Part shown: positions 27,501 through 59,030 of the stretch, piece after piece
Position numbering within the stretch: position 1 is the stretch's first letter
How the letters are laid out: each line of letters opens with the position of its first letter
Source of the DNA: Sialis fuliginosa
Taxonomy: Eukaryota > Arthropoda > Insecta > Megaloptera > Sialidae
DNA: 64,000 nucleotides
NCBI GenBank assembly: GCA_961205875.1
Contig: OY540818.1
Location: 12,436,761 to 12,500,760, forward strand
Direction: 5' to 3'
The notes under the pieces: model-generated
The model's database searches: none
What the model was told of the DNA's origin: nothing
The model's input: the letters and a program-made list of their open reading frames with translations, nothing else
Translations under genes and position numbers: made by a program

Positions 27501-30500
27501 AATTTCTTGAGAATTAATAAAATTTCTCAGTGAATCAAAAAGAAGCACTATGCCTTAACAATGGCTTTTTTATGCGGCTTTCTTTGATATACAATAGTAT
27601 TGCATTTTTATGATCACTGCAATCGAGAATATATTTGCTTTTGAATATTATCCATAATATACATACATTTATTTATGTATATATATAATAAATTTTTATA
27701 AATGTATATAATTTACGTAATAAAAACATTTTATGGAATTAAGTTAATATGATATTTAATTAAATTACTTAAATATCTGAGACCTGTTTTTTTAGAGTAG
27801 TGAAAATTTGCATGTTTTTTAACTTCTTTAATTCATAGCAATAAGGAAGTTATTTATCAATTTTTTTGCATGAATCAGGCATATTTTCAAAGTTCTAGAA
27901 AATGTATATATTTAAAGTAAGGATGAAAATTGTTGTATTTAGACTTCTGGGTATAAACTATAAACTACATCTTCTTAGTTGCCATGACATGTTGTAGAGA
28001 TCATCTTTATAGAAAGTGTATTATAAAATTATAGATCATTTATACCCAAAAGCTTAAATATATTCAAAGATTGTTACATGTATTTAGCTTCTAGCATTTT
28101 ATTATTTTTTACATTTGTAAGTAACATTGAACAAATTTCCTAAAATTTTATCAAAACCTATTTTTTAAATTAACATGTTATACATTGAATATACTATTTT
28201 AATGTATACAAATTTAAAAAACGCCCACATAAGTGAAATATTTCTTATTTCAATTTATACTGACGCCTTTATAATATTAATTATAATTATAAATACAGTC
28301 ATACCCCATTTTATGGCTCTTTGATTTTATGTATTTCAATTACTACCATTCCCTGTAGTTCCAGCGCTTGCTTCGGAGTTACGTTTCTTTAGCGGCATGA
28401 TGTTACCATCAGATCAGCTTCCAACATGAAAATGATGTAACTTTGGGATATGACTGTATTCTAATATAATAATTCTATTTAAAATACACTGTAAATAATT
28501 TTTTATTTACACCAGTATTTTCTAATTCGTAAATATTAATGTAATAAAATCAATTTAGGTGTTGATTTTTAAACAGTGAGAAGTTTATGTCTTATTTCAT
28601 TTGCATGCATTTAACATTACTAATATCGTATGTTTTACATTATATTCTAGTGTTCATTTTTAGCTTTATTTATAAATTTTGAGTTTAATTATTTTAATAA
28701 CACTCATTTAGTTTACATTATTTATATTTATAGTTTTTACTTAATTCATGAAACGTATCTTTTGATAGTTTTAAGATATATCTTGTCTCATAATGTTTTT
28801 AATATACATGAATTAAGATACTAATTAAATATAATTTGTATGTATGTACTATGTGTGTGCGGATATACATAAATATGTAGACAAACGTGTGTACATATTT
28901 TTATTGTGAAATTTAATAATACAGCAATACCCTATTTAAAAATACTGATACATTTTACTTTAGTTTATATTTTAATTGTATCATCTGTTCTCAGGATGGT
29001 ATGATATGTATTTTCATACACAATGACGCACTAATGGGGTCTTGCTGTACAGGTCATTAACAAGTAAACGTAATTAAACATTTAGCTTAACACCTTTATT
29101 ATTGTACACTAATTATGATTTCTAACAGGGGTACTAAATGGCTGTTAAATTGGCAAAACTTTCGTCGATTTTATTTGTATGTAATGACAGAAAGTATGAA
29201 AGCGATTATACTAAGGCACAGACACGTGCTGCTGAGCGAGGAAGTCAAGCAACGTCACAATCTTAACGAGCATGACATCATATCAGCCGCAACACTGCCA
29301 GAGTTAGACGACGCGTACACAAGGTAAAAATGACTATTTCTTATTTAAAATTTTGCTTTGTGTTACAATTTGACAATCTATTATATGCAAATAACCCCCT
29401 CCCTTCTCTCTCCTTGAGGTACATTATGTATTTTCTCTAGGGAAGTATGGTTACCCTATTTATTGTTTGGTTAATGTCCGGTATTATAAAGGAGCTAACA
29501 AAATTTGCTAGCTAGAAAACACTTTCAAATGAGGTTTCTAACTTATCTGACAGTTCTCCTTTAATTTCATGAAATTTTTAACAATTTTCGCGCATGTGTG
29601 GTATGTAAACACCAATGGTATTAAAACAGTGGCGATATTATAAAAATTATTTTGTACGGTCAGAGTCGCCAACTGTGTTACAATACGTTGAAGAATCACT
29701 GCTCTCACAGAATTAATACCCCATTTGAAAGTGCTTACTAGCTAGCAAATTTGCTAGCTCCTTTATAATACCAGACATAAATGTTAATGTTCTATATTTG
29801 TGTTACAGAAGAGTGCATAACTTTAATTCTGTAAATGAAATGTACACATGGAGTTCTTGTATGAATTATTTACCGAATATAAACATTCCAATGGTGTTTA
29901 TTAATGCCAAAGATGATCCAATTGTTCCTGAACCTTTGTTGCAACCTATTAGGAAGTTTGCAGGTATGTGAAACTTCTGAAAAATATCCAAGTTAAAATA
30001 TACTTATGTAATTTTTGTTTGTTAAAATTTATCCCTTAATGTGATATTTTTGGTGCACGAACAGTTATGTGCCATTTGTGAGACTAGTAATTTTGTGGAC
30101 GATATTCTATCAAAATATCTTAAAACTCTTTATTAAATCTTGAAAAAAAAAAGTCATTTATGGTGTTACAGCATCTACTGTAAAGTGACAGATTGTACTA
30201 AACCAATTACGGTTGATTTTTCAAACATAGGCAATTTGAAGGTGAAAATCGGGTGGGGTTGGAGGTCCAATAAAGCGAGGATTAGATCATAAGTTTCAGG
30301 ACCAGTTTCTTCAATCTCACAGACGGCTCGTGACCGATTAAGGGTTAAATAAATAATTTTTTGTGTTGTTTGTTTTCCATAATTTCAACTAACTTAGCAT
30401 GTAAAATAATGGACATGTTTTAATTTGTATTTTAGACGAGCATGTTAATGTCCTTTACTTGGAGGTAGCTCATGGTGGTCATTTAGGTTTCTATGAAGGT

Positions 30501-34240: not shown

Positions 34241-34550
34241 GCCCGGTATTATAAAGAATTTGCTTGAGTGTAAATGCTAATTAGCTACCAGCTAATGCTA
34301 TATGCTAGGTATCAAATATAAATGACAACCGCTCACAGATGTAGTACATACAATGATTTTGACGCATGCGTATTAAGTAGAAATCAGCGACTTAAAATAA
34401 GTGCTGCCAAGTGTAACTCATAAAATGCATAGCATTTACATTATTGTTATACATTTATTACCACTGCTTTAAAATATTGAGCAATTTCATAACAATTTGA
34501 TATCTAGCAGATAGCGTTAGCTGGAAGCTAATTCTTTATAATACCGGTCA
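34241..34550. mobile_element. PIF/Harbinger-type MITE, copy 2 (310 bp)
   Basis: Ends TGCCCGGTATTATAAAGAAT and, reverse-complemented, TGACCGGTATTATAAAGAAT, with TAA on both sides (34,238-34,240; 34,551-34,553). The interior matches copy 3 at 58,756 in reverse orientation, for example the GCTGCCAAGTGTA block here and TACACTTGGCAGC there. It is non-coding. Confidence 0.85.
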
Positions 34551-36754
34551 TAAATCAAAGTTTCTTTTTGTTTATTGGAGAGATAAGGTTCTGGATAAGT
34601 GATTTTCTATTATAGTTGTATTAAAATCATTAATTTGATAAATTTTATATAAAAATATACAAAATATGATTCAAATAAATGAATTTTAGTTGAAAATAAT
34701 TATACAATGAATTGTATGATACTTATATTATTTATTCTGTCATTTATAAAATAAATATATAATTCTGAAAATCCGTATGTGACAAATTTGAGTTTATTTA
34801 AATTATCTTAAGAAATAGTGGTATACAAATATGAATATTTAATATAATTAATACAATAATTAATGAGTGTACTTATTTTTTTAAATTACAAATTATTTTG
34901 GAAAAAATAAGCACTTTTTATGAAAAGTAAAAACAAGCAACGAAGTAACAGTAAATTTATTGGTAAAATTTAAAAAAGTGCCTTTTGTTATAAAGATTTT
35001 TCATTCTAAAAATGTCTCACTTTAATTGGTCAAGTGTTTTTTTATTTTTCTACTAATTTGGTAACTGTAAAAGTGGTTTTCCATATTAAGCAACAAAACG
35101 GAAACTTCTTTTGGTAAAATTAGCAACTTTTTGAAGACTGTTGGCTTTTTAAAAACAATAACATATTCTGATAGTAAAAATGCCAAATTGAAACACAATT
35201 GTTTTTTTTCAATTTTTTTTTGATGAATCAAGAACTAAAAATAAGTTTGGAAGGTATCATTTCACAAAGCTCAGAACAAAATAGCAACGGTTCCGTTGGG
35301 CTTGTGAAAACAGAGTTTCAGTTTTATTTTAAAAAATTACTATTGTTTTGTTCCTATTTTGTTTTGGTTTTTGAAAACAAAAATTTGTTGCTTTTGTGGA
35401 AAACTCCCTTAATGTTTATAAAGAAATATTTCAATTTTGTTTACAATTGGTATGAGATATTATATAATTGCATTATAATTCAGAAAATTTAAATAAACAT
35501 ATTTTGACAATGTAAATAATTATGACAATAAAAAATCAAAATCTGAAAATTTTACATGTATATGTATTTTAAATTTACATTTTATATAATATTCATACTA
35601 AATTGTATAACATAATTTTGTTTACAATGTTGAAAATAAATTTAGCATTTGCTATTTTCTAGATACATTAAAAAATGTTTAAAGAATTGAGTATGATATA
35701 TTTTGAAGCACAAAGCCAAACGGTCCATTTTTTGCAAAAATATATCAGTAACTCAGACGGTTGTGCAGAATCATTTATTAAGAATAATTTTTACTCAATG
35801 GTGAAATTTAATTGACATAAAATAAGATTACTGGTATAAATCACGAGAGTGCAAAAATAAGTGATTAAACACGTTAAAAATGAACATTTTATATTTAAGA
35901 ATATGCGATACTGTTATTTTACTACTGAGTGTTAATTCAAATAAGTTTTTGTTAAAATAGTGATCAATTTCAGCAGTATTGTTGCAATTATATTTTTGTA
36001 TTTAAGAATTATTTAGTTAGAAAAGCAAATGTTAAAAATATACATAATTTAATTAATATATAGTCATATTTGTACCAATGTTAATATTTTTCATAACTTC
36101 ATGTATAATTTAAAAATACGCTTGTACATTTGATTGTTGTGTATGTGGAGCCGTCGATATTTAATAAATATATGTTTAATATATTTGTAACATTTAATTT
36201 ATGTATATTTTACTTCTTACCTATTTTTGATATTAATTCATTATGAACAAAAATATAGGAGTTTTAAGTAAAATAAATGTAAGTATGCCAAGTAAAAAGA
36301 AAGTCTCAGTAGAACATCTATTAGTTTATTAAGTCTTATTCAAATTTGGTATATTATGTTCTGTGAAATTTATGATCAGTAATATGAAATAATAGTTGAA
36401 AGTATAAAATATTTAGAATTACTTATAAAATAAAAGGATTAAAAAGCATTAAAAGTATAGGTTGTAGAGGTTATGACTGCTCACAGAATAATTATCTGGT
36501 AGTATTCACTGTTCTCTTTCTGTTTAATTCGATAAAACAAAAAACCGATTTATTATACGTAGTTATTTGTAAAACAAAAATGTAAGTAATTTTAAAATCT
36601 ATAAAATACATTCTTATTTATTACACCTGAATTTTTGTAAATGAATAATTGTAAACAAACAACTTCATTCACAAATCGTCATTAACAAAGCTTGACAAGC
36701 AACGCTTCAAACATACGATTTCAACGATTTTTGAGTTTTAGTTAAAGTTAAAAA

Positions 36755-39700
36755 ATGAGTGGTAACAGAAAAGATTTTGCTACAGGTGATAAGGTTTTTG
36801 CGAAAGTAAAAGGTTACCCACCTTGGCCAGCAAAGGTAATTTTAATTAAGTATATGAATTATAAAATAACCTCAAATATAAAATATATTTTTGTAAACAC
36901 TAATGAAAATTATTATTTTAGATTGATAATGTAAATGGTAAAAAATATCATGTAACATTTTATGGAACGAAAGAAACGTAAGTATTTTTAAAATTAATCA
37001 TTTTTATATATGAGTATCGGTTTTGCAACGATCTTCTGTTTTAGAGGGGTTTTAAAAATTACTGATTTATTCCCATACCGAGAATATCGTCAACAGTTTA
37101 CAACTAAATATCTAAAGAAAAGAGATTTTTCAGAATCTATTGATGAAATTGATGCTGATCTTTCAGACGATGAAGATAAAAATAATTCTAAGGAAGTAAG
37201 TCGTTTATTCTATAACATAAAGTGACTGTTATTAGGATGATGTTAACTATATTTTTATTAGATAAAAATTATCAAATGTCCCAGATTTTAGTATTTTGTT
37301 CTGTAATCATCTGGCTGTCGTACTGCTGAATCAGTTAGAAATGTATATGATGGCCAGTTAAAGTGTTGAGATTCTGAGAATTTGGTCACTATTTTAGATT
37401 GATAATAGTTTTTTAACTTTAAATGTTTTTAGGATGATACACATTATACGAATAAACATGTAAATAAAATAAAAACAGTAGAAACTGAAGCATCGAAAGT
37501 TGTAGTATCACCAAAAAGAGAAAAGTCTACTCCATCCAGTCGTAAATCCATAAAAAGGAAATTAGATACAGCAAATGAATCACCACACGCAAAAGCAAAA
37601 ACGCAAGTCCTTGAAAATTTTGGATTTACAAAAATAGCAAACACTCCATCGGTATTGCAAGAAGTGATAGAAGAACCAAAGTGTAATGAAACCGATAATG
37701 AAGTGGAACAAGGCGAAGAAGGTGAAGAAGAAATTGAAGAGACGGAGGACCCAAATGATGTAGATGATGACATGTCTATGATGGAAGAATCAGAAGAAAC
37801 TGAATACAATGAAAAGTAAGGAAATTACATATGAACTCTAGTTAAAATTTTTAAAATAAAATATTAAATATTTATTTTAAATCTGCTTTGTTTGTAACCA
37901 AGCTGATTATTCGGAGTATCCTAATTGTAATTAATTACAGTTAATTTATTACAGTGACTTAACCAATGTTAATCATTGTTTCTGTTCTTAAAATTTTGTC
38001 TTATTAAAGAAATAACTGCCCAAATTACTTTATTATTTGGAACTGATTATTGTGTACTAATGAAGTATATCTATTATACAATAAATCAGAATGTTCCAAG
38101 ATTAATAGAAATTGCCGAGAGAACTTCTCGTAGCTTTGAAGTCTTCTGCGATTATTTCTTACATATTTTCAATGTCTTCTAACATGTTGAGTCCTGCTTG
38201 TGGGTCACTCCTGTACTACTCTACCACGGATGGGCATACAGCATTGATTTAAATACAATTTATGTACAATAGTCTTTTTGTCAGTCCCTCAAAAAGATAC
38301 AGAACTCATTTTAATTGCCGGTCTGTACATGTGAAATACAATTTTATAGTGCAGGGAACAACGTGTTAATTAATGTGTATATGTGTATATTGATAATATG
38401 TATGAATTTGAACAAATTTGATTGAGAAAAATATTTCAAGCAAAAAAGTTCGAAGGAACATGTGTCCGGAAATTCTTCGTGAGGGAGCTACTAACTCCCA
38501 AAGATTTTGCCTAAATTTAGATTTTTAAGCAAATAAAAAAAAAATTTTTAGCACCCTCACAAATAGTTTCTGGACACATGTTCATATGACATTTTTTACT
38601 TGAAATATTTTTCTCGACTCACTCTGTATAATATACTTTTAAAATAATTTATAAATTTATTTTTTAGTGAAGAAATATATGAAATAATATTGAGTGATAC
38701 ATTAGAAAAGAAATTAAAGGTAATAAAAATACAAATTATGATTATTATTGTTAGATCTTTTTATTTTTTAAAATTCATTTTTTCAGAATGAAGAATATAA
38801 TGCAGAAAATAAAAATGGTGAGTGTTATTACAAATTACATTACTTTGTATGAATATTAGAATATTGATTGCATCAAGGCTTGAAAGCAGTGATGCCAATC
38901 TATTACGGCATTACGGTAACGTTCTGAGAATAGCATTTCATATATCAACAATATGAGAGATTATCTCAAAATTGTTTTTTTCAAATTGTCTCATGAATGA
39001 CACATGTTATGTAAAAATTTCATAGAAACTTTTTTCTAAAGCATTACAAAGTCATCACAAAGTTTGTAGTAAAATATTCCCTTACGAAGATATATCTACC
39101 TTTGCAGATTTTTTAAAAAGTATATGTAATTAATTAAGTTATTTATCATATGAAGGTCGAAGCCAAAGGCTGGGACCTAAAAAACTTTGGAGTTTTAGTA
39201 TTGTTTGAATGTGTAGTGTATTAACTATGTAGTATAATGTATTTGTGAGAATTAGACAAAATTTAACTTAATAATCACATAGTATAAAACAAAGTAACTA
39301 CTGAACAGATTTTATTTCGGTTTTCACTAAAAATAGTATTTCACAAGGAAGGTTTAGGTGTATACTTTATGTAAATTTAAAAGTAAGTCTGAAAAAAAAA
39401 CAATTGTCAGAGAGGTATGTAAATTTAAAAGTAAGTCTGAAAAAAAAACAATTGTCAGAGAGGTATCTTCGTGTGACCTGCATAAATAGTTAACAGTAAG
39501 TGAAAATAATAATAGGTTTGTTACAAATAAAATTTATATCCCTGGGTAAAATCGGATCCCATGCACCACTAAATATATAAGATATACAGCCAATTAGTTT
39601 ACCTACTTAACAAAAAAAGGAAGTATGTATTACTTTTAAATAATATACTGTTAGGAAATATTTTTAAAATAAAACTCTTTTATAATAAAATAATAAATAA

Positions 39701-42700
39701 TATTTAATTGTTCAATATTAAAAACATAAGCTCGCAAGCAATCTTGCATACAGGTCCTCTGATAATCAAATGTGTCTTTCTTTGTGCATCTGCATCTCAG
39801 ATCCACTTCACAAAATGTAAACATTATCACCAGGGCTAGGGTGAATAGACTAAACAAACTACTCTTATCTTATATAACATTATGTGTATTGTGTATATTA
39901 TGTACCTATGTATTAAAATAATTTTAGTATTTAAATCTTCTTAACAATACCGTGTATAAGACAATTTTTAAAATCCATAATATACACCTGTAAATCAGAG
40001 AGTACAAGGACAGGGACAAGATGCTTATAAGTTTTATAACTACTCATGTCTATTTTATTTATCCATTTTTCAAATCAAAAAACAAATTTTTTTAACTGCT
40101 CTTGAGCAGAGTCTTCTTTTGCTCTATTGCTAAAACGGCTCGTTTGCGGACATGGATTTATTAACAAAAAGCGATTGTTTTAATTAATGTTCTCGGCAAC
40201 TCTTGAAAGTTTGTAATATCTGTACATACCTATATGGCTTTGAGGAATGGGGTTTCACAGTATGGAAAGTACCGTGCCCTACCGGTTTCACAATATGGAA
40301 CGTCTACTATATATGTATGTACATATGTTTTATGCAGGGTTTTATGTTATCATTTGACATTATACGCAGTGGCAGCACTGGTAGTAATCATGTAGTAATA
40401 TTTTTTTAACAAAGAAATTTACATATGAATTATAAATTTTTAATTATTGCTTGAAATAAATCAGTTTAAATAAAACCAGCAGAACTAGAAGATTCATTCG
40501 TTTGGCTTTTCTATTTTACGCATTTCAATTGTGGATTCTCTGTTACAAGTGTTTTAATAATGGAATTTACACAATATAACTATGAAGATAAAAATAATAC
40601 TGAATTAGAAATAAACTATGAAAATGATATTGGTATGAATTATTCGAAACTACCAGATATTTCCGATTTATTAAATGGAAATGAAATGCTGGAACTACCG
40701 ATTCAAACACATCCAAATACAGTGAACAGTTCAAATAATGTGCCAAGTGATTTAATAAGTACAGTTAATCCTGAACATTTTCCTTTTAGCAGTTTTTCAC
40801 ATCCTACTAATATAATTAATCCTATAAATATCTCAAACCCTGTTAATAATAATTCTGAATATGAAGCAAATGCGTGTGATGAAAATAAACAAATGTTGGA
40901 AATTCTACCATATTTCAATTTTGAAAATCTTATTGAAGATTTGGCCAATATTAAAACCGAAGATTTAGAAAAAAATTTATTAGATTTAGAATTTCAAAAA
41001 AAGAAGCCAAAAAGACGTTATAGAAAACGTGTTAAAAAAAATTTTGACTCCGATAATTCTTCGCACAGTGACGAGTGGCATCTACCGAGAAAGTACAAAC
41101 GACATAAAATTAAGAAAAGAATGATGGAAAAAGAAGATGTTACAAGGGTTATGCCTCACAATGAAAGGGTGAAATTCTTAAGATGTCATAAAATATTTGA
41201 AGACTGGATATTTCATCAAATAAAAAGCACTGGGGAACTTTTAGTTCTAGATACACCTAATTATCGAAATCATAATAACTATTCATTTTGTAGTCAAGAA
41301 GTTATTGAAGAATTGAAAAGCATTCAAGATTTATCTGAAGTTTTAAATAAAATATTAGAACGACAAGTAAAACAAGAAGTTACACAAACTGATACTAATT
41401 CTAATGATTTAGAAGTTCAGAACTTGAAAGATTTTGCAGGTGATAACACAAATTCAGAAAATCAATCTTTGATTAAATCAACTGAGAAGCGTGTCTCAAA
41501 AAGAAAGCAACAACTTATTCCAGTAGAATATGAAGCTGATATAATGTCTGAAGAGATCGATACTTTTGAAGATGCTTCTTCAGATGACTTAAACTGTCAA
41601 ATGATCGAATATAAAGAAGAAATTATCATTGAATACAAAGAAGAAATGACTGAGAATAATTTGAATAATGTAATTGAAGATATTTCAGAAATTTATATTA
41701 AATCTGATTATACGGATATTAAAACGAATGCTTCCGATTTAGAAATGAAAGAACGTGGAGTCACAAGTACATCATATGAAAGCTGCAATGACTTTGACAA
41801 GAATAGTGATATCTGTGGTAAAGAAGTTATTTGTGTAGATGCAAAATTATTTGATGATTATGAAACCTCAAATAAAATATTAGTAGTGATGACCCAAGAT
41901 TCTATTATTGAAAATATTGGAAGATCAGACAATGACGTGATTGTTGAATACCTAAACGAAGATACTGTTGATAGCGACATTGGCGACATACTTGAACAAC
42001 CTCAACAAAGCGAAAATTGCAATTTTGAATGTACCAATCATAGCGATTCTACGGAGTTCATTGTAGAAAATGAAACAGCTGATAATATTTTTAAATTAAC
42101 TGACGAAAATAATGCGTTGGAAAATGTTAAAACTGATTATTTTAATGTATGTTATAAAGATAGTGACAAGCAAACTAATAATTTTACAAATGAAAATGAA
42201 CAATATAATAGTACAGTGAAAAGTGAATTGTTAGCAAGTTATGTTTCGGATGAATTTGGACAAGACAATATAAAATTTGAACTTATTAATTGTTGTGATA
42301 ATAAATTAACCGGCAATAATATAAGTTGTAAATCAGAGATATCTGAGATGTCGCCGAAAAATGTTAAACCCAACAATGACGAAATTGAATCAGATATATC
42401 ACCAGATTTAAGCTCGATTGAAATAAATAAAACACAAATAGAATTACACACTACATCAAACAATAATGATGAAAGTGTAATATCTGTATCAAGCGAATCT
42501 TCTAAAGAAAATAATATTGAAAGTGAAGTTTTTAATGAAAATAAACAAAAAAAAGTATCTCAGTGGATATCACATGCTTTAAATCAACCCGAAACATCAA
42601 AAAAAATGAATCTAGTGTATAATCCTTTTTGCAAAAAAAATAATGTTAAATATCAAAATAGTTTAATAGTACCAAATCCATTCGCTAGAAACAAACATAT

Positions 42701-45700
42701 TAAATGTTATAGAAATAAAAATAAATGCATACAAACTTCGTGTTTTAAGACCAAAGCGGAATTAAAATATTATAACTCAAGTGATGAATCAATAAGTGTA
42801 TTTAAGAATAGTTGTTCTGATAGTGAAGTAGTCAATAATGATTACAGTCATTTTGTTTCTGACATTGATAATCAGGATGCGATTGAAAGTTCAGAATCAA
42901 GCGTGTCTGATTCAAGCATAGATAGTTCTCCAGTTGGTGTTTCAGAAACAATAAATCATGTTGAAGTTCCTAAAGATTTATTAGATGCTGGTTATATAGA
43001 TAATACCAGAAGTCCACAAGATAAACTTTCAAATGTTGACATCAAACAAGAGCTTACAAATTCACAGAGTGATGAAGGTATTATGATGTCGCAAGATTTA
43101 TTTTCAAATGAATCGCAATCATACTCACCAATCGTTAAAATTGAAAACGAAACTATTAATAGAAAAACCGATGCACACAATTGTAGTTCTACATATATTA
43201 ATCCAATGCAAGGGTCTACAGACAAAAAGTCTCATATTGAATTTATTAGAGATCTTAACACAAATACAAATGTAAAAATTGGAACTCAACAATTATACGA
43301 AAGAAGAAATATTGCAAATATATTGCATGATTCTTTATTTTTAAACAAAAAGGCTACATTTCTCGAAGAGGTTGAAAGTATTTGTAGAAATAAAAAAATA
43401 AAAATTGAACCAGTGGAATATTCAAATAAACGTAAAATAAAGACTGAAATTAAAGATTTATTAAATAGTACTGCCAATTATTTAAACACATTTCCAGCTA
43501 ATGTAGGTAGAATAAACGTTTATGATAGAATTAAGTTGCGTTCTTCATCTCTTGATAGCACTCTTGCAAATAAACGATCTAATGATTTACCCTACCTCGT
43601 TTGTACTCGAGTTAAACAAGAATTAATATCTGATGATGAACTTTCCACAACTGTTAATATTCCTGTTCAAAAACCTTCAAAAAATAAAAGAAAGAAACGT
43701 GTTTATTATGATCAATACTTTGGTGAAAATTCTAATTTAGAGACGATTAATTTCAAATCTGAACCTATCATACGTCCTCAAAAAGGAGATACATGCGCTA
43801 TTGATGTTAATAATATTATCGATGATGATATTCACATAACTCGCCCTTTAACAAGGAAATTGGCACAATCATTGATTGAATTAAATATTGATACAATAAA
43901 TTTATCTGATAGAAAATCAAAAGAATTAAGCAAAGGAAATTTATTTAATAGAAAATCAAAAGAATCAAACAAAGTACAAGATAATAAAACTAAAAAGAAC
44001 GCTATTGGTATGAAAGATAAAAAATCGCAGATCAAATCAACTCTAAATAAATTTAAAAACATAACAACAAAATTCATGGGAAAGTTAAAAAAAAGTTATG
44101 CTGAAAAACTTGATAATCAAGATAAAGAAAAAAGCTCAAAAGAGTCTAAATCAAAAAAGAAAAAATTGGTAAAGAAAGAAAAAGATAAATCTTTTAAGAT
44201 TACAAAGAACATCAATAAAAAAGAACAACCTGTAAAAATTCCTGTACGCAGGTCTCTAAGACTACAAGAAGCAATAATCTTGAAAGAAAAACGTGAATCT
44301 GTTAAAGTAGATTCAAATATGAATTCAAATGATACATTATTGTTACCTAAAAAGGAAGCTACCAATTTTGATAATCGTATGTGTGAGAAGATTGAAGCAA
44401 AAATATCTATTGATGATATTTTATCAAAAAAACAAAAAGAAATTGATGAAGATCTAGAAATTATCAATCAATATAAATCAACAGATTTAACAGAAATATA
44501 TAATACGAGTACTATAGGAAAAAATGAAATGTCAAGAAGATCAAAGGTATTTAAAAGTTACAAACTAGAAGATTTGAATGATGAAAGTATTCTGCCCCAA
44601 AGAAGAATTACCAAAAAGAAAAAGAAGTTTAATTTTAAGTTACCGTTAACACGTAGACATTACGTTTATATAAAACCGATCAAAAATGTTTTTAAGTTTC
44701 ATCGCAGGAAGAGTTTTCCAGCAAAAATATGTACAGTAACTCAAAAGTATTCAAATCCAGAATTTGATGATAAAATAGAGACACTTACTGCCAAAAATCA
44801 AGAAAAATCTTTGAATTTAGAAAGCAACGATAACATAATTAAAAATGTGGATATAGCTATAAAAGAAGTCAGTACAAAATATAATTTACGGAAAAGAAAA
44901 CTTGATAATACTGAAAATAAATATACACGACAAGAACAAAAGCCAATAAGAAATATTAAAACACGTAAACGAGGAGTTTTAGTAAACAGAATAAATAATA
45001 AAAATAAAAAAATACATCATTCAACATTGTTAAAAAGTATTGGATGCACAAAGAAAAGATATAACAGTTTTAAAAATAAATCTGCATCGCCGACAAAAAA
45101 ACTGAAAATTCAGTTAGATGTTAAACAACCAAAAAACCAAACAGACTCTACAGACACATCAATGACAAGCAGTTCTTCTGATTTGGTTGATTACCTAATG
45201 CAACCTAATTCACACGGCTCATTCAAGAGAAATTATGATGTTTATATGTTAACACAAGTGGTATATTTTAACAAGTATGCGTTGCTTGAAAATAATAAAA
45301 ACCGTTTCTTCAATTTTGATTTTTACATCAACCTAAAACATCAACATGAAGATTCCTTGAAAATGGCAGAAATGAAAAGTGGTAATTATTTAAACGTATT
45401 ATACATTACTAATTTCTGTATAGTTTACTTCTCAGATAATTTTTGTTCAAAATATATATTTAATTCATTATATTTTTGCCTTTTTTGTTTTTCTTGTTAT
45501 AATTTTATACATGAAAAAAATCAATAACTAAATCTTTTTATGCATTTTTATATTAAAAAAAATAATTATATATTATATAAAAGGGGTGATCAAAGTTTAT
45601 GCCAATAATTTGAAAACATAGATATATTTTATAGGGAAACAGAAAGTAGGTATTGAATAGCAATTTATTTATTGCATATTGTTCACAATTGTGTAGTACG

Positions 45701-48989: not shown

Positions 48990-50137
48990 TTATTTTTTTC
49001 TTAAGGACTCTAGAATTATAGGTTTCCTGAATGGACGGTCTCTACCTCCGAAACGTAACTGTCCTGATTCTTTCCGACCACCAAATCCACCTCCTGAGAA
49101 TACAAACAAATCTGTTGAATATTTTATAATTAAATATTTTGAACAAAATAAATTGGATATTTTAATTTATGTACGTAGACTTGTATTTAAATTAATAACA
49201 GTTACTCCTGAGAATGATATTTTCAAATAAAGTTTTGGTAATTACCTAACCGTCTTGGTTTCCATCCCTTCAGTAATCTTTCACATTCAAAATCTACAAA
49301 TATTTCATTTCCATCAACTCTTTGTTTGTACATCTGTTTATAAGCTTCTTCTGCATCTCTTTCATGCTCGTATTCTACAAAAGCATATCCTTTTGGTGTT
49401 CCAGTTACAATATCTTTTACTAACCGAAACCTACGAATAATAAAATCAGATTATACTAAAACAACAAATTTTTCAATACATACTAGATGATTTACCTGCG
49501 TATTTTGCCACACTGTGAAAAAAGATCTTTTAATGTTTCTTTTGTTGTTTTAGGGTTTAGGCGGGATACAAATATCGTATTTTCCGGTTTACCTTTCACG
49601 TGACGGTTAGGGTAATATTCAGAATGTAATGCTCTTAAAATACCATGATCATGTGGTTCGGTATCTGTGCTATCAATTGAACCAACTTTTATTGGGTCGT
49701 AAACTTTTGCAAACGGTGACCAATTCTTTAAGGTACCTTGGGAATCCTGTAAAAATTAAATTATGTATTGATAATACATACTTTGGTTAATACGGAGTGT
49801 TGTCAGAATTGTCAAACATCACGTACATAGTTATTCAGAATAGAGTTGATGCTCTACTAATATACATGTTAATTGTCCCTGGTTAGAGCAATCTATTGGG
49901 GCAAATTCAAGTTGATTTGTTTTGGGTTATGGGAATTCAATCTCCGCCGCAACAAACTGTTTAAAAAAAATAAAATAAACATTATAATGGTATAATAAAT
50001 GTTCTAGTCACAAATGCACATGAACTCTATTCTAAATAACTAATACGTGATTTTTGACAATTCTGACAGCTTCCACCCATACACTCCGTATTAATCCATA
50101 CTTTTAAATACCTTGTTTTTATACTTACCTTACTCAT
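48990..50137 (-). CDS. SNRNP35: U11/U12 snRNP 35 kDa protein
   Basis: Exons (minus): 50137-50129, 49746-49496, 49430-49246, 49093-48990, giving 182 aa. Seen: [20 protein letters not shown] at the N terminus, matching the human N-terminal block; one RRM with RNP2 IFVSRL (61-66) and RNP1 KGYAFVEY (100-107); then [20 protein letters not shown] and the family C-terminal box [18 protein letters not shown] (158-175). This protein belongs to the U11/U12 di-snRNP, which recognises the 5' splice site of minor (U12-type) introns in the nucleus. All exon phases agree. The first exon codes only MSK. Intron 1 holds a 302-bp MITE. An AATAAA on the minus strand overlaps the stop codon. It lies head-to-head with RBMX2, and its upstream region is the foldback array. 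It implies that this species keeps the minor spliceosome. Confidence 0.96.
49790..50091. mobile_element. MITE family A, copy 1, in SNRNP35 intron 1 (302 bp)
   Basis: Inverted ends ATACGGAGTG... and ...CACTCCGTAT, with a second inner inverted block (TGTCAGAATTGTCAAA and TTTTTGACAATTCTGACA). TA lies on both sides; TAA cannot be excluded. It shares internal blocks with 54,844-55,154 (AGTTATTCAGAAT, CGCAACAAACTGTTT). It is non-coding. Confidence 0.82.
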
Positions 50138-50692: not shown

Positions 50693-50863
50693 ATATATAT
50701 ATATATATTATATTTGCTGCAGCATGACTATGATGTTAAAGTTAGTTTTTCAAAGCAATTTTAATTAAATGTGTGTCTCAACAGTGACGCCATGTAATAA
50801 GTTCGTAAATGATAATATTTATTAAATAAAAGGTAAGTAATTTTAAATTGTACAAAACTTTAT

Positions 50864-50983
50864 ACCTGTGTAAATAAACAGGTAACAAAGAACTAATTAA
50901 GAGCATCTATGTAGATAAATAGATGTTTTAAATTCAATCAGTTCACAATCACGCATATCATATCTGTGTAGATAAACAGATAT
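50864..50983. repeat. left trio of same-loop hairpins
   Basis: Three hairpins share the loop GTARATAA but differ in stem: ACCTGT/ACAGGT (50,864-50,883), CATCTAT/ATAGATG (50,904-50,925) and ATATCTGT/ACAGATAT (50,960-50,983). The stems are perfectly self-complementary although their sequences differ. Confidence 0.8.
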
Positions 50984-51157
50984 ATTATAAAATTAAATCC
51001 AATATAAGACTGTATAGATTTTTGTACTGAAAAATACACCCTTTTCAATTTTTAAAGTATAATACATGCCATCGTATGTAAGAGGAAACGCTGATTTAAA
51101 ATTTATTCTTAATCGGAATGGCTTCTGAAAAAATTATTGAAATTTAAAAGGTTTATA

Positions 51158-51240
51158 TGGCGCCATCTAGCAGAAACAGCTTGAACTATCAAACACTGAC
51201 TGAATGATATTTTTAGTTCAAGCAGTTTCTGCTAGATGGC
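51158..51240. promoter_or_regulatory. inverted pair of CTCF-like motifs (left arm)
   Basis: TGGCGCCATCTAGCAG (51,158-51,173) and CTGCTAGATGGC (51,229-51,240) face each other across an imperfect hairpin. The first, reverse-complemented, fits 14 of 16 positions of the CTCF core consensus as I remember it (CCASYAGRKGGCRSYV). The second loses the last bases. Confidence 0.4.
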
Positions 51241-51299
51241 AAAACATAAAAATTTTAAATTTCAAAAAAATTCAGAAGCCATTCCGACTAAGTCAATGT

Positions 51300-53010
51300 T
51301 TTTAACAAATTAAAGACACTATCATATGTATTAGGGTATCCTGAGTACAAAAATGCACATAAGAATTATCGCTCGGATCGATAAAACAATTTTTTATCAA
51401 CATTTGCCTAAACAATTTGTTTGAAATATTTAACAAATGAAGGAATTTTAATCTGGTGTAATATATGATATCAGCGTGTTATTTTACATACGATGTCATG
51501 TATAATAATTTCAAATTAATAAAGAGTGTATCACTTACCGTACTGAAAAACTCATCCTTATTGAATTTGAAAATAATTGACACACCATCGTATGTAATAT
51601 GACGCACTGATATCAGAAATGATATTAGATTTTAAATCAATTAACTGGTTCAAAATTTGATGAAATTTTTTAAGACAAAAGTTGATAAAAAACCGTGTTA
51701 TAGATCCGAGCGCAACTTTTGATGGGCATATTTGGAATCAGGGTGCACTAATACATACGATAGCGTCTCTAACTCGCCAAAAAAAAATTTTTCCAAAAAA
51801 GAAGCAAGGCTATAGTATGGCTTAAAAAACACCCGAAAAACACTTTTTTCGATTTTCAAAAAATTAGATACGTTATCGCATGTAAAGGGATACGCTAATT
51901 CGACAATTTTTATCTGTTGTGAAATTCATCAAAGGGTTCAAAAGTTACAGCCATTTTACGACGAAAAATTGATAAAAAACGGTGATAGGGGTCCGAGCGG
52001 AACTTTTTATCAACATTTTTGGATTCACCGTGCTGTTATACATACGATAGCGTGCCTAACTCGACAAAAAAAAATTGTAGCGATGACGTAACATGACGGC
52101 GCCTTCACCAAAAAATAAAAATGTACAAAAATAATATAAAAGTGGTATTTTTGAATAAGGAATACAAAAAAATCAAAAAATATTTTATTCTGTATATTTG
52201 GTGGAGGTGCCGTCATGTTACGTCATCGCTACAAATTTTTTTTGTCGAGTTAGGCACGCTATCGTATGTATAACAGCACGGTGAATCCAAAAATGTTGAT
52301 AAAAAGTTCCGCTCGGACCCCTATCACCGTTTTTTATCAATTTTTTGTCGTAAAATGGCTGTAACTTTTGAACCCTTTGATGAATTTTGCAACTGATAAT
52401 AAAAGTCGAATCAGCGTATCCCTTTACATGCGATAACGTATCTAATTATTTGAAAATCGAAAAAAGTGTTTTTTGGTCAAAATTTAAAGAAGACTATTAC
52501 CCCTGTTAATTTTTGAGAATTTTTTTTTGTGTCGAGTTAGAGACGCTATCGTATGTATTAGGGCACCCTGATTCCAAATATGCCCATCAAAAGTTGCGCT
52601 CGGATCTATAACACGGTTTTTTATCAACTTTTGTCTTAAAAAATTTCATCAAATTTTGAACCAGTTAATTGATTTAAAATCTAATATCATTTCTGATATC
52701 AGTGCGTCATATTACATACGATGGTGTGTCAATTATTTTCAAATTCAATAAGGATGAGTTTTTCAGTACGGTAAGTGATACACTCTTTATTAATTTGAAA
52801 TTATTATACATGACATCGTATGTAAAATAACACGCTGATATCATATATTACACCAGATTAAAATTCCTACGTTTGTAAAAAATTTCAAACAATTTTTTTG
52901 GACAAATGTTGATAAAAAACAGTTTTATCGATCCGAGCGAAACGTTTAATGTACATTTTTTTAATCAGGGTAGCCTTATACATACGATAATGTTTCTAAC
53001 TCGACAAAAA
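51300..53010. repeat. central near-palindrome of the array
   Basis: Arms of about 0.85 kb meet near 52,155. Examples of matching blocks are GATAGGGGTCCGAGCGGAAC (about 51,983) with its complement (about 52,310), and TGATGTAAC-like ends GATGACGTAACATGACGG (about 52,081) with CCGTCATGTTACGTCATC (about 52,211). The unpaired centre, about 52,099-52,206, is AT-rich. Confidence 0.85.
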
Positions 53011-53144
53011 AAAATAACAGTCGAAATGGCATCAGAAAAATTAATTGAAATTTTAAAAGTACATGTAACAAAATCTAGCGTGAAAAGCTTAAACGGCTTA
53101 AACTATCAAAAAAAACTGAATTATATTGTTAGTTCAAGCTATTT

Positions 53145-53160
53145 CTGCCAGGTGGCGTTT
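53145..53160 (+). promoter_or_regulatory. decayed CTCF-like motif (middle copy)
   Basis: CTGCCAGGTGGCGTTT fits about 12 of 16 CTCF core positions. Its expected inverted partner near 53,073 (AAATCTAGCGTG) is degraded, so this module looks older or relaxed. Confidence 0.25.
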
Positions 53161-53264
53161 ATGAACCATTTAAATTTCAATATTTTTTTCAGATGCCATT
53201 TCGACTAAGTAATTTTTTTTTGTTGAGTTAGAAACACTATCGTATGTATAAGGCTACCCTGATA

Positions 53265-53640
53265 ATTTTTGAGAATTTTTTTGTGTGTCGAGTTAGAGAC
53301 GCTATCGTATGTATTAGGGCACCCTGATTCCAAATATGCCCATCAAAAGTTGCGCTCGGATCGATAACACGGTTTTTTATCAACTTTTGTCTTAAAAAAT
53401 TTCATCAAATTTTGAACCAGTTAATTGATTTAAAATCTATTATCATTTCTGATATCAGCGCGTCATATTACATACGATGGTGTGTCAATTATTTTCAAAT
53501 TCAATAAGGATGAGTTTTTCAGTACGGTAATTGATACACCCATTTTGAATTTGAAAGTATTATACACACCATCGAATGTAATAAGACACGCTGATATCAT
53601 ATATTACACCAGATAATAATCCATTAATGAAAAATTTCAG
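53265..53640 (+). repeat. direct duplication of 52,512-52,870 within the array
   Basis: Both copies begin TTTTTGAGAATTTTTTTGTG-like and run through GTCGAGTTAGAGACGC, CACCCTGATTCCAAATATGC and ATAAGGATGAGTTTTTCAGT, ending near CACGCTGATATCATATATTA. They are nearly identical for about 280 bp and then diverge. This is why the right half is longer than the left. Confidence 0.8.
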
Positions 53641-53818
53641 GCAAATTGTTTAGACAAATGTTTATAACAAACTGTTTTATCGATCCGATCGAAACTTTTT
53701 ATGTGAATTTTTGGACTCAGGATGTCTTAGTACATACGATACATCTCTATCTCGTTAAAAAAAATTGAATTAGTCGGGATGGCTTCAGAAAAGATTATTG
53801 AAATTTAAAGGGTTCATA

Positions 53819-53905
53819 TGTCGCCATCTAGCAGAAACGGCTTGAACTAACAATATCATTCAGTCAGTGTTTGATAGTTCAAACTGTTTCTGCTAGATGG
53901 CGCCA
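53819..53905. promoter_or_regulatory. inverted pair of CTCF-like motifs (right arm)
   Basis: TGTCGCCATCTAGCAG (53,818-53,833 region) and CTGCTAGATGGCGCCA (53,890-53,905) form the mirror of the left-arm pair. The second site fits 14 of 16 core positions. The pair again flanks a GTTCAA-containing hairpin. Confidence 0.4.
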
Positions 53906-54100
53906 TATAAACATTTTAAATTTCAATAATTTTTTCAGAAGCCATTCCGATTAAGTCAAATTTTTAATGAATAAATTTAGAATCAACGACCTCTTACATA
54001 CGATGGCATGTATTATACTTTAAAAATTGAAAAGGATGTATTTTTCAGTACAAAAATCGATACACCCTTATATTGAATATATGCAATTTAATTTTATAAT

Positions 54101-54224
54101 ATACCTGTTTATCTACACAGATATGATATGCATGATTGTTAACTGATTGAATTTAAAACATCTATTTATCTACATAGATGCTCTTAATTAATTACTTCTT
54201 TGTTACCTGTTTATCTACACAGGT
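54101..54224. repeat. right trio of same-loop hairpins
   Basis: Complement of the left trio: hairpins at about 54,101-54,124 (one stem mismatch), 54,159-54,180 and 54,205-54,224. The last two keep perfect stems with loop TTATCTAC. Confidence 0.78.
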
Positions 54225-54552
54225 ATAAAGTATTGTAGAACTGAAAATTACTTACCTTTTGTTTAATAAATATTATCATAAACGTATGTACTTATTACAT
54301 GGCGTCATTGTTGAGACTCACATAGTACTATGTATCAGGCTATGTATATTATTGCATCTATTTATTGTATTGCATATAATAAAAAAATAAAATAAAACAG
54401 ACAGCTTTGGGATTCGAACACCAAACAAATTGGTAAACAGCATAAACAGTTCGTTCTTAACCTCAGTTTTTTTTTTAACAAATGTTGATTTGACGTTTAC
54501 TCGTAATATATTTTTGTTTATTTATCGTGTTATCACTAATTATTTTACAAAA

Positions 54553-56486
54553 ATGAATCCCTTAACGTAAGTATTTTTAAAATCTGTATCTTAATTAGCA
54601 ATCTAATACTTAAATTTAATTACACATGTTATTTTATTTAACAGAAATATGAAAAATGTTAAAAAATTAAGCGATCAAGAATTAAAAGGAAGTAATAAAA
54701 CATCATGGCACGACCAGTATAAAGATAGTGCATGGATATTTATTGGAGGACTTCCATATGATTTAACAGAAGGCGATGTAGTTTGTGTATTTTCACAGTA
54801 AGTTTTTATATTTAGGTATATGCAGATAATAATCTCTGGGCTAATACGGAGAATATGGGTGTCTCGTCGTCACAGCTGTCAAATACACATATGTAGTTAT
54901 TCAGAATTGAGTTGATTCTTTAATAATATACGCTTTAACTGTCCTTGGTTAGGACAATCTATTGGGACAAAAGGGGGTTAATATAGTATAAAAACAAGGA
55001 TTCAATCTCCACCGCAACAAACTGTTTCTATTAAATAATTGTAAAATAAAAATTCCTACATGTTACAATAGATACAGCACATTCTATTCTATTCTAGCAT
55101 ATCAACACATGATTTTTGATAGTAGTGACACCAGGATACCCATATTCTCCGTATTAACCATCTCTGATCTCGATCTGCAACTTCTTAATTTTTGAAAATA
55201 TCAACTCGCCAGTGGTTGGCGACCTAACTTCACACGAAATACATGACAGTTTGACTTAAAATTGAACAAAATCAATTTAATCATTACTGTCATAGCTGTT
55301 AAAACTGATTATGTTTGATCTAATCGTAAACTATGCTATGTATTATATAAAGTTAGTCTGTCAAGCATCATTGTAATGTGTAATATAACATTATATATGT
55401 AATTTGTAGATACGGAGAAATTGTGAATATTAATTTAGTACGAGACAAAGATACTGGGAAATCTAAAGGATTCTGTTTTATATGTTACGAAGATCAACGT
55501 TCAACCATTCTTGCAGTGGATAATCTAAATGGAATAAAAGTAATTGTATTTAATTTATTATAAAAATAATTTTTAAACTAATTTAATTTAATTATTTATA
55601 GTTGTTAAAACGAACCATTCGAGTGGATCATGTAGCTGATTACAAAGTACCTAAAGAATCAAAGAAAATTGATGAAGAAACACGGCAATTACAAAAAGAA
55701 GGATGTGCTCCTGGATCAGAAATAATAAAAAAATTGTCATTTCATAATAATTCTGACGTTTCAATGAACAATGATGATATCAAATTGCCTGAACGGTTAT
55801 CAATAGGCCCAGTAAAGGTAAAGAGTGAAAAAGAAATTAAAAAGTTAAAAAAGGACAAAAAGAAGACTAAAAAACTTAAAAAACGGGCAAAAAAATTGAA
55901 GAAAAAATTAAAGAAATTAAAGAAGAAGAAAGATTCTAAAGAATCTTTAAGTAGTTCAGACAATAGCAGTAGTGATGGTGATTCAAGTAGTTCAGGGTCA
56001 GAAGATGAAAAAGATAAAAATGAAAAAGAAAAAGAGGATGTAGTAATAAAAGTAGAAAAGGAAGACAAAGTTGAGAATAGTCAAAAAAATGTTAAAGATG
56101 TAATGAAAACTGATAGAGATGAAGAAAGGAGAGATGGTTCTTACAAAAATTACAGAAGTGATACTTCAGATAATAGAAGAAATGATATAAAATATTCAAG
56201 AAGAAATTACAATGATGATAACCGAAGTGATAAAGATTATAATAGAAAAGACGTGGATGTAAGAAATAAGTATAACTATAAAGATGATAGTAGCAGAAAT
56301 GTAAGGCATGATAGAGAAAGAAGGGAAGATAATAAAGATAGAAATAAATATGGTAATTATAGAAGTCAAGGTAGCAGTGGATATGGTGATCGATATAAAA
56401 AACATGAAAAAGATAAATTTGATAAACGTAAATATGACGATCAACGAAGATATGATGATGGCGATCAAAAAAGAAGTAGAATCTAA
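54553..56486 (+). CDS. RBMX2: RNA-binding motif protein, X-linked 2 (RES complex, Snu17/Ist3 homologue)
   Basis: Exons: 54553-54566, 54645-54797, 55410-55539, 55602-56486, giving 393 aa. Seen: MNPLT start as in human; WHDQYKDSAWIFIGGLPYDL with RNP2 IFIGGL (36-41); one RRM with RNP1 KGFCFI (75-80); the block YEDQRSTILAVDNLNGIK (82-99), almost identical to human; and RTIRVDHVADYK (103-114). Then comes a conserved TRQLQKEGCAPGS and a low-complexity tail: lysine-rich (KKLKKKLKKLKKKK), an SSSD acidic patch, and an R/D/Y/N-rich end. The family protein joins the activated (Bact) spliceosome as part of the RES complex with BUD13 and SNIP1. All phases agree. AATAAA lies at 56523-56528. Intron 2 contains a 311-bp MITE of the same family as SNRNP35 intron 1. 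It is convergent with TRMU. Confidence 0.96.
54844..55154. mobile_element. MITE family A, copy 2, in RBMX2 intron 2 (311 bp)
   Basis: Inverted ends ATACGGAGAATATGGGTGTC and GACACCAGGATACCCATATT-CTCCGTAT, with TA on both sides. Internal blocks are shared with 49,790-50,091. Its ends pair over about 28 bp, longer than in copy 1. Confidence 0.85.
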
Positions 56487-57093: not shown

Positions 57094-58511
57094 CTAGCAA
57101 ATACCATTAAGTAAAAATAAACTAGGACCTGGATGAATTATCCTGGTACTACCCAAACATTCATTATCTAAATAAAATACAGCATACTGTCCAGCAGTCA
57201 CAGCTCGTGTTGGTTTATCTAAATTAATTAATAGATGTCCGTTTTCGTTTTTCACTACTTTGCATTCTAATAAAGGTTTTGTATGTTGAAACCGGAATTT
57301 ACAATTCAATACAATGTTTTTTTGAAGACTTTTTGGTTCTTCATGAATCCAGTAAGGTTGCGATGTAAAAATTAATTGAGTGTACAAGATGGGATGATTT
57401 GTTGTAAGTGCCTAAAACAAATTAAAATACGGTCGGGATTTGCATTTATTTTTAAATACTCCTAAATAAATAAAAATTATTATTTACCACATATATTGTA
57501 TTTGACAAAGGTTCTTTCCTAGCAATAAAATATTTATGTTTAAATCCACCCAATTTTGCTCCTTGTCCTAACGTCCAGTGATGAAACCCCTTATGAGTTC
57601 CTACGATTTTTCCATCACTGATATCTACAAACAATCCGGGTTTATCTTCTATATACTGTAAAATATTTCATTAATAAAAATTATAGAAAATTAAGATATT
57701 TTTTATTAAAAAAATATCATTACTTCAGATATAAAATTACTAAAATTTCTTTCTCCAATGAAACATATTCCTACACTATCTGGTTTGTTCGAAACAATGT
57801 TTAAGTCTTGTTCTATAGCTATTTGTCTCACTGACGATTTTACTAAATTTCCTATCGGAAACATTGTCCGTCTCAGTGCGTGTTGTGGTATTTGCGACAG
57901 GAAAAATGTTTGATCTTTGTGTTTATCTTTAGACATTAATAACTTCACTTCTGAAATTTTTATTTGTAAATTAATACATTAAATATATTAATATGCAAAC
58001 ATAACATATATTTACTTTTATTTTCTATAAAATTTTCTAAATAACAACCAAAACTGGAACATGCGTAATGGCCTGTAGCAATTGCATCAGCACCTAATTT
58101 TTGTATAGCATATCGATAAAAATGATTGAATTTTACAAAACGGTTACACAAAATATCTGGATTTGGTGTAAGGCCTAGTTGATAATCTGTTATTAAATTG
58201 CTGAAAATCATATTTAAAATGTATATTATTTATCTTGAGTAGAGTATGAAAAATTGTATTATGTACCTAAACACATTATTCCAATATTCTTTAACAAAAT
58301 TAACATGGATTAAATTAATTCCTAATTTCGAACATATTTTTTCAGCATCTTCCGCATCTCTATCTGCTGAACATCTCCCAATTTCATCTGGAATATCCCA
58401 ATTTCTCATAAAAACCCCTGTCACATCATAACCTTTACTTTTTAATAACAAAGCACTAACAGCACTATCTACCCCACCAGAAATTCCAACTACTATTTTT
58501 TTAAATATCAT
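57094..58511 (-). CDS. TRMU: mitochondrial tRNA-specific 2-thiouridylase 1
   Basis: Exons (minus): 58511-58267, 58200-58016, 57950-57724, 57655-57488, 57411-57094, giving 380 aa (human has 421). The enzyme makes 2-thiouridine at the wobble position of mitochondrial tRNAs for Lys, Glu and Gln. Seen: the PP-loop GISGGVDSA (9-17), FMRNWD, the NPDILCN block with the first catalytic-type Cys, [21 protein letters not shown], the second Cys in [23 protein letters not shown], and C-terminal [18 protein letters not shown]. All splice phases agree. The annotated Met precedes the PP-loop by only eight residues, so no mitochondrial presequence is evident; the human start is equally short. It is convergent with RBMX2. 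Confidence 0.96.
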
Positions 58512-58755
58512 TGCATAAATATTACGAATAATTTATTCATCGTTTTTTAAAATTAATACAGTTTTAGAACATAGAAGAAGAATTGTCAAGAAACGTCACA
58601 AATTGTTATACATAAATTGAAAATGATCAGCTGAGTAAACAGCTGATTGTGTTTGAATTTTGAATGGCGGGAATTTTTCAGAATACTATTGCCACTATTG
58701 CCGTCATTGCTACAAAATAAGTATGGCAAAGTAAGTATTAAGTATATATGTCTAA

Positions 58756-59030
58756 TGCCCGGTATTATAAAGAATTTGCTCGCAAATTTTCTTCCAGCGA
58801 ACGCTATCTACTAGGAGTCAAATTGTTGTGAAATTGCTCGATATTTTAAAGCAGTGGTAATAAATGTTTAATAATGTAAATGTTATGCATTTTATGAGCT
58901 ACACTTGGCAGCACTTATTTTATGTACGATTTCATTGGCTACATCTATGAGTGGTTGTCATTTATATTTAATACCTAGCAGATAGCATTAGCTGGAAAGT
59001 AATTTTAATTTGCTCAAATTAGCTCCCAGC
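58756..59030. mobile_element. PIF/Harbinger-type MITE, copy 3, one end missing
   Basis: Starts TGCCCGGTATTATAAAGAAT after TAA (58,753-58,755). Its interior is the reverse complement of the copy at 34,241-34,550 (TTAAAGCAGTGGTAATAAAT, GAGTGGTTGTCATTTATATT). The distal end degenerates near AAATTAGCTCCCAGC, and no terminal GGTATTATAAAG complement follows. Confidence 0.72.

Follow-up and report, generated by a model that had tools for sequence, protein, structure and literature searches.

The sequence analyzed here is a 64,000-nucleotide stretch of Sialis fuliginosa contig OY540818.1, referred to below as the window, which is without N and has a G+C content of 20 to 35% per kb. Two divergent genes for splicing proteins, SNRNP35 and RBMX2, enclose the foldback block that is described below. 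SNRNP35 has its RRM in open stretches 49226–49450 and 49495–49755 (RRM_1, E = 5.9 × 10−12 and 4.1 × 10−6), with a best PDB match for the second stretch to the U11/U12 35 kDa protein of 8r7n (E = 1.2 × 10−21), and 54607–54798 matches RBMX2 of 5z56 (E = 1.7 × 10−17). These matches agree with the initial annotation, in which the block is placed between the SNRNP35 and RBMX2 start codons; from these, as set by eye, it is separated by 631 bp and 229 bp, respectively. SNRNP35 on the minus strand and RBMX2 on the plus strand are both transcribed away from the block, which is upstream of both. Scanning the sequence upstream of RBMX2 for bacterial promoters is uninformative in a eukaryote.

The surroundings contain other genes and repeats. 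Downstream of RBMX2 and in the opposite orientation, open stretches at 57094–58532 (minus strand) are those of a tRNA 2-thiouridylase (MnmA/TRMU-like), where 58233–58532 matches tRNA_Me_trans at E = 9.4 × 10−28 and the remainder is assigned by eye. A 1685-aa open frame occupies 40470–45527, with no Pfam match at E 0.01 in 40551–45524. Two copies of a repeat different from the block, 71% identical over 308 columns, are found at 49799–50099 in the first intron of SNRNP35 and at 54866–55161 in the second intron of RBMX2, with exon limits set by eye; the first copy has inverted ends.

The block itself had been said to encode nothing recognizable, and this agrees with the frames scanned. The longest stop-to-stop frame is 109 aa, and the 6 frames compared with Pfam, out of 37 with at least 40 aa, have no match at E 0.01 or at E 1. 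Rfam has no match in the window at the gathering score, and ARAGORN finds no tRNA. The tandem repeat finder gives no array in 50769–54323; presumably it cannot join units that have diverged so far or are inverted.

Fold and internal anatomy

Local alignment ends at 50769 and 54323, on paired ends of the form ATGTG(T/A)GTCTCAACA(G/A)TGACGCCATGTAATAAG, at most one base from the limits in the initial annotation, and the architecture outlined there is recovered in each of its parts. The outer inverted arms (50769–51798 and 53266–54323) are ~1.03 kb long and 87.2% identical over 1065 aligned columns. The near-palindrome of about 1.7 kb at the center measures 1712 nt in an ungapped comparison, with 814-nt arms (51299–52112 and 52197–53010) that are 92% identical on either side of an 84-nt spacer, and with gaps allowed it covers 51098–53217 at 85.8%. 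The internal direct duplication pairs 52501–53217 with 53257–53965, at 83.9% overall and 97% in the first 300 nt. RNA folding had been proposed as a check, and the top strand of the block gives a minimum free energy (MFE) of −2175 kcal/mol with 1552 pairs, versus −654 to −719 for 12 dinucleotide-shuffled versions and −665 to −793 for 8 other window pieces of the same length. The fold-back of the block is beyond chance, with an MFE about 3 times that of shuffles or neighboring DNA.

Table 1. Coordinates of the foldback element, its parts and the two flanking genes (positions in the window).
Feature	Position	Strand	Remarks
SNRNP35 (U11/U12 35K)	48990–50137	−	start codon at 50137; start codon and exon limits by eye
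Whole foldback element	50769–54323	.	3555 bp; layout A P X Y Z c Z' Y' X' P' Y'' X'' P'' A'
A, left terminal domain	50769–51097	+	3 short hairpins, loop GTA(G/A)ATAA; 93.0% to A' over 327 aligned bases
P, ~190-bp mini-palindrome	51108–51292	+	paired CTAGATGGC motifs; 80% self-complementary
X unit d1	51321–51495	+	inverted matches: 87% to d6, 82% to d8
Y unit d2	51586–51762	+	inverted matches: 99% to d5, 98% to d7; overlaps the 306-nt identical run
Z unit d3	51875–52049	+	94% to d4, inverted
c, center of main palindrome	52113–52196	.	84 nt
Z' unit d4	52260–52436	−	
Y' unit d5	52547–52723	−	
X' unit d6	52814–52989	−	
P', diverged mini-palindrome copy	53017–53213	+	70% self-complementary; 71–75% to P and P''
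Second copy of the Y' X' P' segment	53257–53965	−	direct duplicate of 52501–53217; holds d7, d8, P''
Unit d7	53303–53479		inside second Y' X' P' copy
Unit d8	53570–53741		inside second Y' X' P' copy
P'', third mini-palindrome copy	53770–53959	−	81% self-complementary; inverted, 88% to P
A', right terminal domain	53966–54323	−	inverted copy of A; 3 hairpins, one stem mismatched
RBMX2	54553–56486	+	start codon and exon limits by eye

The interior is made of eight ~175-bp units (d1 to d8) and three ~190-bp mini-palindromes, the latter positioned outside the X units. Once d4 to d8 are inverted, the units fall into three groups, which are X (d1, d6, d8; 81–87% identical), Y (d2, d5, d7; 98–99%), and Z (d3, d4; 94%). 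Identity between groups, taken in the better orientation, is 66–79% overall. X and Y match best when one is inverted (75–79%), Y and Z without inversion (71–72%), and X and Z score 66–72%. Since units compared in the worse orientation, or with their own reverse complement, already give ~59–68%, the kinship of X and Y is clear, that of Y and Z is modest, and that of X and Z is weak. All eight units presumably have a single common origin. Between P' and Y'' (~53213–53263) there is a short inverted X-unit start, part of a palindrome at 52964–53263; hence, the array around P' may once have been longer, before a deletion or an unequal exchange.

Each terminal domain has three hairpins of 20–24 nt (50862–50983 and 54101–54226) in which the loop is common and the stems vary on both sides together. 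The left stems differ by paired changes (ACCTGT/ACAGGT, ATCTAT/ATAGAT, and ATCTGT/ACAGAT), and the right three hairpins are inverted copies of the left three, the mismatched stem being the one at 54101. By itself the loop motif has 34 occurrences across the window, and the block accounts for 6 of them. The hairpins are perhaps transposase sites, or perhaps products of hairpin-templated repair.

The paired segments of the arms are unevenly alike. Identity between B and B1 in 50-nt bins goes from 0.70 to 1.00, and includes an identical run of 306 nt (51441–51746) that is found beside arm segments at 70–86% identity. When the mismatches are reshuffled 2000 times, a run of that length is never reached. 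The same calculation gives 0 of 2000 for the 110-nt identical run of C and C1, 1 of 2000 for the 79-nt run of B1 and B2, and 21 of 2000 for the 76-nt run of B and B2; A and A1 have no unusual identical run (836 of 2000). The simplest option for the cause of the mosaic would be local conversion between the arms or repair templated by the hairpin.

Related repeats and the target site

A profile was made from 19 aligned half-units around a TACATACGAT-type motif. It finds a second foldback at 15238–15813 with 23.9 and 23.2 bits (E = 6.8 × 10−7 and 1.2 × 10−6), compared with at most 8.3 bits in 20 shuffled versions of the remaining window sequence. This foldback is 576 bp long and 91.7% self-complementary, with arms of 285 nt at 92% placed 6 nt apart. 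Its ends are unlike those of the main element, and it is a relative by the internal module. With the half-unit module found twice within 64 kb, at separate sites, a mobile repeat fits better than a unique regulatory locus. Miniature inverted-repeat elements (MITEs) are non-coding and short (<~800 bp), with inverted termini. The smaller foldback would suit a MITE by size, and the block at 3555 bp is too long for one.

Searched against the rest of the window at E 1 × 10−3, the block has no match beyond this smaller foldback and 36564–36606. The latter is a 43-column partial match (81%) to terminal domain A, which has no second copy in the window. Exact-pattern scans with the ends and units give 0 matches in the viral_contigs and genome_contigs collections, which says little because these are viral and prokaryotic. 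A text search of papers for five stretches of the element finds none. Papers on foldbacks, on hairpin and small RNAs, and on CTCF with transposons provide systems for comparison, and the element itself is not among them.

Foldback-type transposons characteristically have target-site duplications of 7–10 bp, and none was found at the ends of the block. The search covered symmetric shifts of up to 12 bases with an extra right slip of at most 1 base, for lengths of 2 to 12, exact up to 6 bases and with one mismatch allowed from 7. The best candidate for the main element is a dinucleotide, and 498 of 500 random position pairs score at least as high; for the smaller foldback, 413 of 500 reach the best score. 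By this search, neither has a target-site duplication. The lack of a duplication at the block could be due to any one of decay, misplaced ends, and exchange between copies. Because of it, we claim that the block has the build of a foldback and probably the past mobility of one, and assign no superfamily.

Several other repeats in the window are recorded here. Copies of a short repeat at 34279–34551 and 58755–59004, 75% identical and in opposite orientation, contain CTAGCAGATAGC-type motifs resembling motifs of the mini-palindromes. Another repeat has copies at 12839–13247 and 20496–20916 (73%, opposite orientation), part of which also matches 38963–39045. A short element at 29471–29781 has 65-nt inverted ends (89%) and a candidate 8-bp duplication with one mismatch. 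Adjoining the main element, GGATTCGAAC at 54410–54419 is similar to an inverted tRNA B box, perhaps from a SINE remnant.

Candidate explanations

The block is probably a non-autonomous foldback-type DNA transposon or what is left of one. Among the readings in the initial annotation, the plain foldback transposon fits best, given the paired ends, the lack of coding found, and the related smaller foldback. Long inverted termini form most of the element and sub-repeats are found inside the arms (the eight units in three groups), both of which are features of foldback-type DNA transposons.

Known elements with which the block may be compared are Tetris and Galileo. Tetris is a foldback transposon of Drosophila virilis, and as described in PMC4079207 it resembles the block in structure, being without protein-coding capacity and having inverted termini of great length (up to 1735 bp, versus ~1.03 kb here), a terminal domain followed by internal repeats (~220 bp, versus ~175-bp units spaced ~265–290 bp here), signs of homogenization, and a smaller related element, DAIBAM. 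The same description gives Tetris target-site duplications of 8–10 bp, of which none was found in the block, and internal repeats that are tandem and ~94% alike, whereas the units of the block are partly inverted (X versus Y), 66–79% alike between groups, and interleaved with mini-palindromes. Galileo, of the P superfamily in Drosophila, shares with the block variable inverted termini, termini-only copies, and termini lengthened by internal repeats and by recruited internal sequence, according to the account in PMC4168063; it differs in its target-site duplications, which are 7–8 bp long, and in its segments that encode a transposase, and neither feature is seen in the block. The Tm1 Mutator/foldback family of root-knot nematodes, in the description of PMC3169594, likewise has composite inverted termini of variable length and includes MITE-like members, but its target-site duplications are 9 bp long and it has members that code for a putative transposase.

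The question raised by the missing duplication is whether the two ends come from the same insertion. Ectopic recombination between two foldback copies would have joined foreign flanks, in which case the block would be a rearrangement breakpoint whose ends stem from different insertions, and the SNRNP35–RBMX2 pair would have come together secondarily. That would account for the missing duplication, and the order Y' X' P' Y'' X'' P'' suggests an exchange or duplication within the element. A part in the origin of Drosophila inversions is reported for Galileo, BuT5, and DAIBAM in PMC4079207. However, a second copy with exchanged flanks was not found in the 64 kb, and a decayed short duplication would look alike, and we consider a breakpoint unlikely.

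The fold of the block also invites comparison with hairpin RNA (hpRNA) loci, in which a transcript of the block would fold into long double-stranded RNA, be cut by Dicer-2, and result in endo-siRNAs. The block has the long stable inverted repeat expected of an hpRNA or endo-siRNA locus, with an MFE well below the lowest of the 12 shuffles. In the accounts of PMC10317233 and PMC10292708, Drosophila hpRNA loci are likewise long inverted repeats that give long double-stranded RNA if transcribed, some of them close to their targets (PMC10317233), but an hpRNA locus also has a transcript, siRNAs, and a complementary target, which for the block would be predictions. The initial annotation had proposed that read-through from either promoter would make the double-stranded RNA, and that mechanism is rejected by the orientation of the genes. 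As SNRNP35 and RBMX2 run away from the block, promoter read-through cannot make double-stranded RNA of it, and transcription could enter only as divergent antisense transcription. hpRNAs typically match one or few targets, as described in PMC10317233, and the block has no match to the neighboring genes at E 1 × 10−3. Nor do the arm differences have a bias that preserves G-U pairing, with 22 of G-U type versus 33 of A-C type (p 0.18) when A/A1, B/B1, and C/C1 are pooled, and 11 versus 15 in B/B2, which is outside the pooled test. We regard an hpRNA locus as very improbable.

We also considered a palindrome that homogenizes itself at every scale by repeated hairpin-templated repair and that, in the divergent promoter, gives double-stranded RNA or insulation for the two splicing genes. 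Palindromes in the block are indeed found at scales of 20 nt (the hairpins), 190 bp, 300 bp, 1.7–2.1 kb, and 3.5 kb, and we regard the compound proposal as highly improbable.

As a chromatin boundary, the block would have CTCF-like sites in its mini-palindromes that shield each of the two promoters from the other. To a CTCF consensus, the window has 20 matches with up to 3 mismatches (7.9 expected in the whole window), of which 5 are in the element. The pattern CTAGATGGCGCC, also with up to 3 mismatches, has 13 matches in the window (5.7 expected), of which 9 are in the element, two of them exact. But the five CTCF-consensus matches, at best with 2 mismatches, are all in copies of one amplified sub-repeat and hence are not independent, the CTAGATGGCGCC pattern was derived from the element itself, and similar motifs are found in other repeats of the window (34504, 58801, and 58975). 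The endo-siRNA and insulator readings make a weak case from the shape of the block and a weak CTCF-like motif, and a boundary is scarcely credible. Least credible of all is an assembly artefact from fold-back chimeric reads, suggested by the perfect inverted identity of up to 306 nt, since such reads are expected to give near-identical arms throughout, whereas the paired segments here differ by 7–12% overall in a structured mosaic and one segment is present twice on one side only.

Proposed origin and growth of the element

For the foldback transposon, which remains the preferred explanation, the following history may be proposed. The element would have inserted into an interval of ~860 bp between the two divergent genes, moved by a transposase supplied in trans by another element and acting on terminal domains A and A'. 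The arms may have grown by inverted and direct duplication of the ~175-bp unit and the ~190-bp mini-palindrome, after which local gene conversion or hairpin-templated repair would have made parts of them identical. The element is now probably immobile. No evidence for a host job was found, and the argument so far for a role in gene regulation is the position of the block; presumably it serves no host function.

The block is ordinary in kind and unusually recursive and elaborate in structure. In a single copy, it shows how a foldback possibly grows, by adding copies of a ~175-bp unit and of a mini-palindrome in one orientation or the other. With neighboring arm segments that are 100% and ~75% alike, it lends itself to measuring conversion between inverted arms. 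The block would also mark a rearrangement if exchange between copies is the reason for the missing duplication.
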